From Chloroflexota bacterium (GTDB lineage: Bacteria; Chloroflexota; Limnocylindria; Limnocylindrales; CSP1-4), in NCBI GenBank assembly GCA_027364875.1, contig DAHXON010000023.1:1-40650 (forward strand): a DNA stretch of 40,650 bases, read 5' to 3'. Positions 3,250-4,929 of the stretch are shown one piece after another. The notes beneath the pieces are model-generated. The model worked only from the letters and a program-made list of their open reading frames with translations, was not told the origin of the DNA and did not search any database. Each line of letters begins with the position of its first letter. Position 1 is the stretch's first letter. The position numbers and the translations under genes were made by a program.

Positions 3250-4929
3250 CTAAATCCACGCCGGTTCCTGGTATTCGCCGAACACCTCGCGCATCACGCC
3301 GATGATCTCTCCCAGCGTGGCGTAGGCACGGACGCAATCCAGCAGGTGCGGCATCGTGTTCTCGGTGCCCTGGCAGGCAATCCGCAACCTATCGAGGGAC
3401 TGGCCCACGCGTCCGTTGTCGCGGTCGCGGCGCAAGTCCGCCAGCCGCTTCGCCTGACGTGCGTATCCGGCCGGGTCAATGGCGAGCAGCGGGATTGCCA
3501 GCGGCTTGTCGTCGACGAAATCGTTCACGCCCACGATGCTGCGAATGTTGCCATCGATTTCACGTTGGTAGCGGTACGCCGCGTCTGCGATTTCTCGTTG
3601 GAAGAATCCATGTTGAATGGCAGGCAGGACGCCGCCCTCTTCTTCGATGAGTCGGAAGTAATCCCGCGCCTCGGCTTCCATGCGGTTCGTCAGGAATTCA
3701 ACGAAGTAGGATCCGCCGAGCGGATCAACGGTATTCGCCACGCCTGATTCGGCCGCGATGACCTGTTGGGTCCGAAGCGCAACCGTGGCGGCCTGTTCGC
3801 TGGGCAGCGCAATGGCTTCGTCCATCGAGTTGGTGTGCAGGGACTGTGTTCCGCCGATGACCGCCGCCAGGGCCTGGATGGCCACTCGCACAACGTTGTT
3901 CATCGGCTGTTGGCCCGTCAGGCTCACGCCCGCCGTCTGCGTGTGGAAACGGAGCAGCCATGATCGCGGGTCCTTCGCACCGAACGTGTCGCGCATCTCA
4001 TGCGCCCAGATGCGGCGGGCGGCGCGGTACTTGGCAATCTCTTCGAAGAAATCGTTGTGAGCGTTGAAGAAGAACGACAGCCGCGGCGCAAACTCGTCCA
4101 CATCCATTCCGCGGGCGATGCCCCAGCGTACGTATTCCAGTCCGTCGCCGAGCGTAAATGCGAGTTCCTGAGCGGCGGTACTCCCGGCTTCGCGGATGTG
4201 ATAACCGGAAATCGAGATCGTATTCCACTGCGGAACGGTCTGCGAACCAAACTCCATCGTGTCCACCACGAGCCGCATCGAGGGCTCGGGTGGGAAGATG
4301 AATTCCTTCTGGGCGATGTACTCCTTGAGGATGTCGTTCTGGAGCGTGCCGCGCAACTGGTCTGGGCGCACGCCCTGTTTCTCCGCGACCGCAATCAACA
4401 TCGCCCACAGGATGGCGGCGGGCGAGTTTATCGTCATCGAGACGGACACCTTGTCGAGGGCGATGCCGTCGAACAGGATCTCCATGTCCTTGAGGGAACT
4501 GACCGCCACCCCGCACTTGCCAAACTCGCCCACTGCTTCCGGCGCGTCGGTGTCGTAGCCCATCAGCGTGGGGAGGTCGAGTGCGACTGAGAGACCGCTC
4601 CCGCCCTGGCTGAGCAGGTACTTGTACCGCACGTTCGACTCTTCCGCGGTGCCGAATCCCGCGAACATGCGCATCGTCCAGAGTTTGCCCCGGTACCCCG
4701 TCGCGTGGACGCCACGCGTGTAGGGGTACTGGCCGGGCAGGCCGAGGTCATCGAGATAATCGAAGTCGGGCAGATCGGTTGGGGTGTACAGGCGGGCCAC
4801 TTCATCGGATGAAGTGGTAATGAATTGCGACTGCCGCTCCGGAGCGCGCTCAAGCGTGGCGGCGAGGGTCTCTCGTTCCCATTGCGCCTGCGCTGCGCGC
4901 AGATCATTGAGTCGTTTCGGATCCACCAT
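3250..4929 (-). CDS. icmA: Isobutyryl-CoA mutase large subunit (methylmalonyl-CoA mutase family, no B12 domain)
   Basis: Coenzyme-B12-dependent carbon-skeleton mutase, 559 residues, consisting of the substrate-binding TIM barrel only. The C-terminal cobalamin-binding domain of full-length MCM is absent, so a separate small subunit is needed; none is in the window. By-eye alignment to Propionibacterium MutB keeps the same numbering. Tyr89 is Phe ([11 protein letters not shown]) and Arg207 is Gln (KEYIAQKEF), the pair that defines isobutyryl-CoA mutase. Tyr243-His244 ([11 protein letters not shown]) and Ala116 are retained; Ala116 argues against 2-hydroxyisobutyryl-CoA mutase, which has Asp there. 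Product would be n-butyryl-CoA. Start: ATG at 4929 with AAAGGA upstream; a 71-residue in-frame extension overlaps the preceding gene and is low-complexity, so it is rejected. The gap to the upstream gene is 17 bases. Automatic pipelines would probably call this methylmalonyl-CoA mutase. Confidence 0.88.

Follow-up and report, generated by a model that had tools for sequence, protein, structure and literature searches.

The putative branched-chain acyl-CoA operon and its mutase

The window analysed here is a stretch of 40,650 nucleotides that makes up one whole contig (DAHXON010000023.1; G000:C124 in our collection) of a Chloroflexota genome of 3.82 Mb, assembled in 208 contigs and 90% complete. 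It carries a putative operon of nine same-strand genes, the eighth of which encodes the large subunit of an acyl-CoA mutase of the isobutyryl-CoA mutase (ICM) type. An earlier, sequence-only reading of this DNA had proposed that the mutase brings valine-derived isobutyryl-CoA into beta-oxidation by way of butyryl-CoA. In the order MCCB-MCCA-HMGL-thiolase-HBD-crotonase-ACAD_B-mutase-ACAD_A, where MCC is methylcrotonyl-CoA carboxylase and ACAD acyl-CoA dehydrogenase, the genes are as follows.

12083..13711, minus strand: MCC beta-type carboxyltransferase, first gene of the run, leucine module (by PDB matches)
10049..12079, minus strand: biotin carboxylase/biotin carboxyl carrier protein (BCCP) subunit, MCC alpha by context, leucine module (by family match)
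9117..10052, minus strand: 3-hydroxy-3-methylglutaryl-CoA (HMG-CoA) lyase, leucine module (362 bits, cut-off 246)
7773..9011, minus strand: acetyl-CoA C-acyltransferase (thiolase; TIGR01930 over cut-off)
6920..7765, minus strand: 3-hydroxybutyryl-CoA dehydrogenase (over three NCBIfam cut-offs)
6106..6885, minus strand: crotonase or short-chain enoyl-CoA hydratase-like protein (below the cut-off for 3-hydroxyisobutyryl-CoA hydrolase, HIBCH)
4947..6095, minus strand: ACAD_B, short-chain (butyryl-CoA) ACAD-like (best PDB match mitochondrial SCAD, 436 bits; YEGT)
3250-4929, minus strand: acyl-CoA mutase large subunit, ICM type (F89/A116/Q207/Y243-H244), 559 aa, no B12 domain
2054..3214, minus strand: ACAD_A, short-chain ACAD-like (best match mitochondrial short-chain ACAD, 351 bits; YEGT at the C-terminal base)

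The spacings along this run are 3, -4, 105, 7, 34, 10, 17 and 35 bases. The two best matches of the first gene are AccD1 4q0g (862 bits) and 9yx0 (860 bits), with MCC beta 3u9r at 780 bits; against beta chains of propionyl-CoA carboxylase (PCC) it scores 279 bits for 1vrg and 779 for 9tps, which is named PCC beta. We take the C-terminal YEGT of ACAD_A to be a base of the Glu376 type. The butyryl-type ACADs, crotonase, 3-hydroxybutyryl-CoA dehydrogenase and thiolase of the sequence-only reading were confirmed by families and PDB matches and form a four-carbon (C4) set; the leucine module of MCCA, MCCB and HMG-CoA lyase had been missed.

The mutase open reading frame starts with ATG at 4929 and has its stop codon at 3250-3252. 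Alignment to Propionibacterium freudenreichii MutB (1req), human MUT (2xij) and HcmA (4r3u), with positions indexed by script, showed that residue 89 is Phe, 116 Ala and 207 Gln and that Tyr-His occupies 243-244, bearing out the residues given by the sequence-only reading. In the same columns MutB has Tyr at 89 and Arg at 207, and the 2-hydroxyisobutyryl-CoA mutase (HCM) HcmA has Ile at 89 and Asp at 116. In the 1req chain as printed, which is offset by one, the Tyr and Arg of MutB come out as letters 88 and 206; we take them to be Tyr89 and Arg207 in the usual MutB numbering, so the coincidence of numbering claimed earlier was right. Phe and Gln at sites 89 and 207 are, we assume, tied to ICM specificity. 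The window mutase lacks the Tyr89 and Arg207 of methylmalonyl-CoA mutase (MCM) and the Ile89 and Asp116 seen in HcmA, and has every residue of the ICM pattern (Phe89, Gln207, Ala116 and Tyr243-His244). In PMC7238569, Jost 2015 is cited for two specificity sites, Tyr/Arg in MCM.

Relatives were the best 80 of 594 confirmed homologues in a GTDB-based collection, and among those best 80 the residues at 89, 116 and 207 are Phe/Ala/Gln (F/A/Q) in 64 and Tyr/Ala/Arg (Y/A/R) in 16. On a quick tree of 113 rows (109 loci, the window and three PDB references), in which many deep forks are not settled, the F/A/Q, Y/A/R and HCM types need 3 changes, and the same number with the three site columns removed. 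Because 64 relatives share the pattern against 16 of the other type, with only three type changes on the tree, it is not a matter of chance. The window mutase clusters with F/A/Q mutases, separately from MutB and human MUT (both Y/A/R), and HcmA with a near-identical Methylibium copy (both I/D/Q) forms another clade. The window mutase thus falls outside the MCM and HCM references, on rows that include no characterised standalone IcmA from Streptomyces; this is the main gap in the assignment, and the very long branch of the F/A/Q domain of Priestia IcmF is a further weak point. Overall, ICM-type specificity is well supported by the signature residues, the tree placement and the gene context, with substrate and function being predictions from sequence.

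That the gene encodes a second MCM, taking isoleucine-derived propionyl-CoA to succinyl-CoA, is very improbable. It scores over the cut-off of TIGR00641, a general mutase model named for MCM, and isoleucine breakdown by the operon would give propionyl-CoA; however, Tyr89 and Arg207 are both substituted, no epimerase is found among the nine operon genes, and the genome already encodes a separate Y/A/R MCM (contig C162, 56% identical to the window mutase) with an adjoining methylmalonyl-CoA epimerase (TIGR03081 130 bits, cut-off 115). The score for the MCM equivalog PRK09426 is 627 against a cut-off of 876, a shortfall due in part to the lack of a fused B12 domain. The IcmF model NF045497 gives 334 bits against a cut-off of 1500, with the mutase part alone matching, so the protein is not an IcmF single chain; its closest PDB sequence match is HcmA 4r3u, at 557 bits. 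Gene context in relatives was scored on the same strand within 6 kb, with truncated contigs retained and with Fisher tests uncorrected for relatedness. By this measure an epimerase, probed with the one beside the genome's own MCM, lies near 3 of the 64 F/A/Q mutases versus 13 of the 16 Y/A/R mutases (Fisher p 9e-10), and a carboxyltransferase near 5 of 64 versus 12 of 16.

A substrate other than isobutyryl-CoA, whether isovaleryl- or pivalyl-CoA, 2-methylbutyryl-CoA or a branched acyl-CoA yet unnamed, seems to us distinctly unlikely. The ICM assignment draws on just two or three residues, those outside the two sites vary among F/A/Q relatives, and Jost et al. (2015) reportedly predict acyl-CoA mutases of unassigned substrate. 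The partner enzymes, however, make up a set for straight-chain C4 compounds, with 3-hydroxybutyryl-CoA dehydrogenase and thiolase at its end, leucine exits through its own MCC and HMG-CoA lyase, and a leucine-free cassette in another genome (L216, below) retains the mutase.

Seven F/A/Q mutases (L095, L097, L102, L106, L129, L138 and L145), including four whose records bear archaeal names (Hermod, Thorarchaeota), show His in place of Asp at 118 (SVAFHLPT), which may be the mark of another substrate class. Two divergent Y/A/R mutases, L169 (G025:C5) and L167 (G022:C263), at 44-46% identity, have motifs that include MGQYAGF.

The B12-binding subunit and the origin of the mutase

No small B12-binding subunit was found in the window. 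The sole mutase-type B12 subunit found in the genome, of 134 aa with DGHDRG and over the TIGR00640 cut-off, is encoded on contig C195 next to MeaB, which passes TIGR00750. Of the genome's remaining B12-binding matches, two are below cut-off, one is a corrinoid-protein-like gene adjacent to a homocysteine methyltransferase-like gene, and one is an open frame of 1081 aa. Both F/A/Q and Y/A/R large subunits occur in 18 genomes of a 61-genome set, this one included, and exactly one small subunit (E 1e-8) was found in 16 of the 18, with none in G031 and two in G022, one of which adjoins an HCM-like mutase. In G056, G058 and G060 it is the F/A/Q mutase that has the single small subunit next to it or nearby. 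One small subunit in 16 of 18 two-mutase genomes suggests that ICM and MCM share it, here as elsewhere; as draft assemblies may miss genes, we infer this sharing from the counts and no more. Among 28 further hand-picked genomes, whose large subunits are not all typed, there was one small subunit in 20, two in 7 and three in G360, and in six of the seven two-count genomes the open frame that holds the second match is 709-763 residues long, which fits a fused MCM.

The same-family genome G022 also holds an HCM-like mutase of the Val/Asp/Gln type (L076, G022:C221, 7869-9857), which comes with a small subunit of its own and lies about 6 kb from 2-oxo acid dehydrogenase genes.

The mutase gene is a xenolog, acquired by this genome, and the operon core was probably acquired likewise. 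The mutase shares 81-83% identity with its counterparts in distant Chloroflexota and only 55-64% with F/A/Q genes of its own class. On the tree it groups with other Chloroflexota and not with 14 F/A/Q rows of its own family (12) and class (2), the alternative having an approximately unbiased (AU) test p of 0.00125; this grouping was picked after the first tree was seen, and three further F/A/Q rows of the class lie outside it. Of the mutase copies read in 20 genomes of the same genus, every one with readable sites is Y/A/R. The segment from ACAD_A to the 3-hydroxybutyryl-CoA dehydrogenase gene has a GC content of 62.2%, compared with 69.9% and 69.6% at the contig ends and 63.9-69.0% in the other inner segments. 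The right end of the contig (about 35.1-40.6 kb, with SerRS, LysRS, GreA and ArgR) has counterparts in each of the 20 genomes searched from the same genus, with 74-85% DNA identity over the long stretches and order mostly kept; for window positions 1-19.9 kb, the matches listed are the E2 gene described below, other mutases, and short or weak stretches. A misbinned contig, which was considered given the 81-83% identity to distant genes and the 55-64% within the class, is rejected on the evidence of this genus-typical right end. The tree grouping, the Y/A/R-only copies of the genus, the low GC content and the native right end together indicate acquisition of the mutase, and probably of the operon core.

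Between 27071 and 32399 the window holds a DUF4411 gene, an HTH/M78-peptidase gene (toxin-antitoxin-like) and two open reading frames without a Pfam match. They lie next to a tRNA-Ser at 32314-32399, the sequence of which is found again in the genus; this may be an island boundary.

Related cassettes and the fate of valine

The L216 locus (genome G434) carries, on one strand, the cassette THL-HBD-ECH-ACAD_B-FeS-MUT-ETFb-ETFa-ACAD_A (THL, thiolase; HBD, 3-hydroxybutyryl-CoA dehydrogenase; ECH, crotonase; FeS, iron-sulfur protein; MUT, mutase; ETF, electron-transfer flavoprotein). Its proteins are identical to those of the window at 82% (MUT), 74% (ACAD_A), 73% (HBD), 70% (ACAD_B), 63% (ECH) and 50% (THL) of positions, and within the 20 kb of the locus neither MCC nor HMG-CoA lyase found a match. 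Past ACAD_A the same strand continues with a thiolase-like gene, a pair of CoA-transferase genes and a further ACAD. A second locus, L077, reads HBD-ECH-ACAD_B-FeS-metallo-hydrolase-MUT-ETFb-ETFa up to the contig end; the ACAD_B homologues of the two loci are 70-73% identical to that of the window. On paper, the L216-type cassette would turn isobutyryl-CoA into two acetyl-CoA unaided, and its window counterpart is joined to the leucine module. Among the 64 F/A/Q mutases, 17 have at least one beta-oxidation gene nearby, versus 0 of 16 Y/A/R mutases (p 0.018).

In the reading that we consider probable, for which we infer substrate, direction, subunit sharing, valine as the source and cotranscription, the large subunit would dock with the sole mutase-type B12 small subunit, encoded on another contig beside MeaB, which presumably serves the resident MCM too. 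The coenzyme-B12 mutase would reversibly interconvert isobutyryl-CoA and n-butyryl-CoA, and the operon ACAD, crotonase, 3-hydroxybutyryl-CoA dehydrogenase and thiolase would take butyryl-CoA to two acetyl-CoA and hand the electrons to ETF. These enzymes could also be used for isoleucine and, with MCC and HMG-CoA lyase, for leucine, so that the operon would be an oxidation unit for all three branched-chain amino acids into whose shared beta-oxidation the mutase feeds valine. The wider picture is that one operon oxidises all three through one common beta-oxidation set, enabled by a horizontally acquired ICM large subunit that arrived with no B12 subunit and borrows the small subunit of MCM, with one B12 carrier for two mutases. 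It is put forward more tentatively, as an idea somewhat short of even odds; the single-subunit pattern behind it is seen repeatedly across the class.

As valine is classically degraded through methacrylyl-CoA, the genes of that route were sought across the genome. The HIBCH model NF004127 was over cut-off in 0 of 61 genomes, this one included, and in 2 of 14 controls, and a PF16113 search of the genome returned just two crotonases, both of them window genes. 3-Hydroxyisobutyrate dehydrogenase (HIBADH) is below cut-off in this genome, where the best HIBADH-like gene scores 210 bits; 1 of 14 controls was over cut-off. Methylmalonate-semialdehyde dehydrogenase (MMSDH) alone passes, so the three enzymes of a complete route are not all over cut-offs in this 90% complete genome. 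Its gene (L016) lies on contig C44 among a split transketolase, transaldolase/FSA, SDR, PEP-hydrolase-like and UPF0261 genes, surroundings of a sugar type that suggest a sugar or sugar-acid pathway. Of the methacrylyl-route families, MMSDH is the one present elsewhere in the genome. An anti-correlation between ICM and HIBCH was also considered and proved uninformative, with HIBCH over cut-off in none of the 61 genomes whether or not they have an F/A/Q mutase.

A rival account keeps the mutase as an ICM and sends valine through methacrylyl-CoA, by a non-canonical 3-hydroxyisobutyryl-CoA hydrolase and the C44 MMSDH, leaving the mutase for free isobutyrate or for balancing acyl-CoA pools. The MMSDH score (619 bits, cut-off 448.5), the HIBADH-like gene, ACADs that could take isobutyryl-CoA, the CoA-transferase genes after the L216 cassette and the many F/A/Q mutases remote from valine genes all fit it. 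With HIBCH over cut-off in no genome of the set, MMSDH in sugar-type surroundings and the mutase inside an operon carrying the leucine module, we regard it as unlikely, if the strongest of the alternatives.

Several further observations weigh against the valine route through butyryl-CoA. The MMSDH is present, and HIBCH absence extends to relatives without an F/A/Q mutase, so that by itself it shows no replacement. The remaining operon genes are accounted for by leucine and isoleucine, so the valine route is not provable from context alone. Judged by the C-terminal base of the three ACADs (YEGT, YEGT and GEGT for ACAD_A, ACAD_B and ACAD_C), no isovaleryl-CoA dehydrogenase, an enzyme that carries its base elsewhere, was found in the window. 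At least two beta-oxidation genes lie near only 5 of 64 F/A/Q mutases versus 0 of 16 Y/A/R, which is not significant. Of 20 loci surrounding near relatives (not strictly the top 20), all 20 of them F/A/Q, L216 alone has the cassette, and 17 loci have no probed gene besides the mutase; L217 has a thiolase on the opposite strand, and L233 the small subunit and MeaB. No 2-oxo acid dehydrogenase match was found in the 20 kb at L216, and together with the CoA-transferase pair this means that the cassette there may serve free isobutyrate. The butyryl-CoA route for valine is, on balance, a consistent inference from the lack of HIBCH over cut-off, the full butyryl-CoA beta-oxidation set and the leucine-free related cassette; the tie to valine is indirect, and the branched-chain 2-oxo acid dehydrogenase (BCKDH) that would supply it is putative.

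The following features flank the operon in the window.

1..486, plus strand: E1-beta of a 2-oxo acid dehydrogenase, 5' part cut by the contig edge (pyruvate dehydrogenase, PDH, and BCKDH matches about equal)
519..1997, plus strand: E2 of a 2-oxo acid dehydrogenase, convergent with the operon, with relatives in the genus
14646..15806, minus strand: ACAD_C, acyl-CoA dehydrogenase (GEGT at the C-terminal base)
15980..16777, plus strand: ETF-like subunit (ETF domain only)
16777..17754, plus strand: ETF alpha
17800..19932, plus strand: CCG-domain Fe-S oxidoreductase, possibly the ETF acceptor
19940..20713, plus strand: second enoyl-CoA hydratase-family gene
21396..22154, minus strand: CoA-transferase family subunit, possibly for acetoacetate activation

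The sequence-only reading had placed BCKDH E1 and E2 next door. E1-beta and E2 genes do adjoin the operon, on the opposite strand and convergently; in the PDB the E2 is matched best by that of a pyruvate dehydrogenase, contig C148 carries another E2-like gene, and BCKDH specificity is not established. A 2-oxo acid dehydrogenase gene is near 4 of 64 F/A/Q mutases versus 0 of 16 Y/A/R, which is not significant. At L087, E1-alpha begins 15 bases downstream of the F/A/Q mutase and is followed by E1-beta, and at L099 the mutase, small subunit and MeaB are followed by E1-alpha, E1-beta and E2. Both E1-alpha proteins are under the PDH equivalog cut-offs, but the L087 E1-beta, in a further point against, is over a 'pyruvate dehydrogenase E1 beta' subfamily cut-off (338 vs 321), so that BCKDH is possible there and not shown. 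Two other loci were not accepted as ICM-BCKDH operons: L137, where E1-alpha, one E1-beta model and E2 are over pyruvate dehydrogenase cut-offs, the E2 end is more than 5 kb ahead of the mutase and riboflavin genes follow downstream, and L082, where a glycosyltransferase gene separates the mutase from the E1 genes.

Also beside the operon, at 22094-26853, P450, HgmA-like, FAA hydrolase-like and HPPD/glyoxalase-like genes form a probable tyrosine-degradation cluster.

If the butyryl-CoA route is true, valine breakdown need not use methacrylyl-CoA, which is toxic, and a B12 mutase would shift valine to the fatty-acid track. The carbon yield would change, to two acetyl-CoA in place of propionyl-CoA, and lineages in which no classical hydrolase is found would depend on B12 for valine use. 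A B12 subunit common to two mutases would in turn exemplify the modular assembly of enzymes and account for a bare large subunit working at once after its transfer. Such mutase genes are easily labelled MCM, as PMC7764203 says of IcmF, so annotation-based pathway predictions may be wrong for them.

Comparison with known systems

The icmF operon of Bacillaceae, seen here in Priestia megaterium (plasmid NZ_CP140268.1), resembles that of the window in having an Fe-S protein, thiolase, 3-hydroxybutyryl-CoA dehydrogenase and two ACADs upstream of an F/A/Q mutase. It differs in that B12 domain, GTPase and mutase are fused, a TetR gene is present and no crotonase is in the run, whereas the window mutase is a bare large subunit whose operon encodes neither a B12 domain nor a chaperone and also holds the MCC and HMG-CoA lyase genes. 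HcmA (4r3u) shares Gln207 with the window mutase and differs by Ile89, Asp116 and its separate clade, and the MCM large subunits (C162, MutB and human MUT) have the same mutase domain and differ by Tyr89 and Arg207 and by their epimerase or carboxylase neighbours. Streptomyces IcmA, which is not among the tree rows, is presumably a standalone large subunit with Phe/Gln, as is the window mutase. In the Streptomyces IcmA/IcmB system, as in the reading proposed here, valine is linked to butyryl-CoA, and PMC8176718 describes ICM of Streptomyces albus as strongly induced by valine.

A close precedent for the pathway is the ICM cluster of the syntroph Syntrophothermus lipocalidus (Slip_0757-0760), for which PMC5017805 predicts conversion of isobutyryl-CoA to butyryl-CoA and then, by beta-oxidation, to two acetyl-CoA. 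As described there, that cluster has separate mutase subunits and the same isomerisation and beta-oxidation as the window system; it includes a small subunit, an adenosyltransferase and MeaB and serves isobutyrate, whereas the window operon has none of these and has leucine genes. Mutase plus beta-oxidation also appears as an isobutyrate route in digesters, in PMC7382037 and PMC8674449. ICM chemistry and its catabolic use with beta-oxidation are thus already known from S. lipocalidus and digesters, and the Priestia operon has much the same gene set, so the earlier suggestion that a catabolic ICM operon is under-described is only half right. In the open-access literature, most subscription papers lying outside the search, nothing was found that describes an ICM together with MCC and HMG-CoA lyase, or a small subunit common to ICM and MCM. 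What is new in comparison is the acquired bare ICM large subunit joined to a leucine module, together with the single small subunit in 16 of 18 two-mutase genomes.

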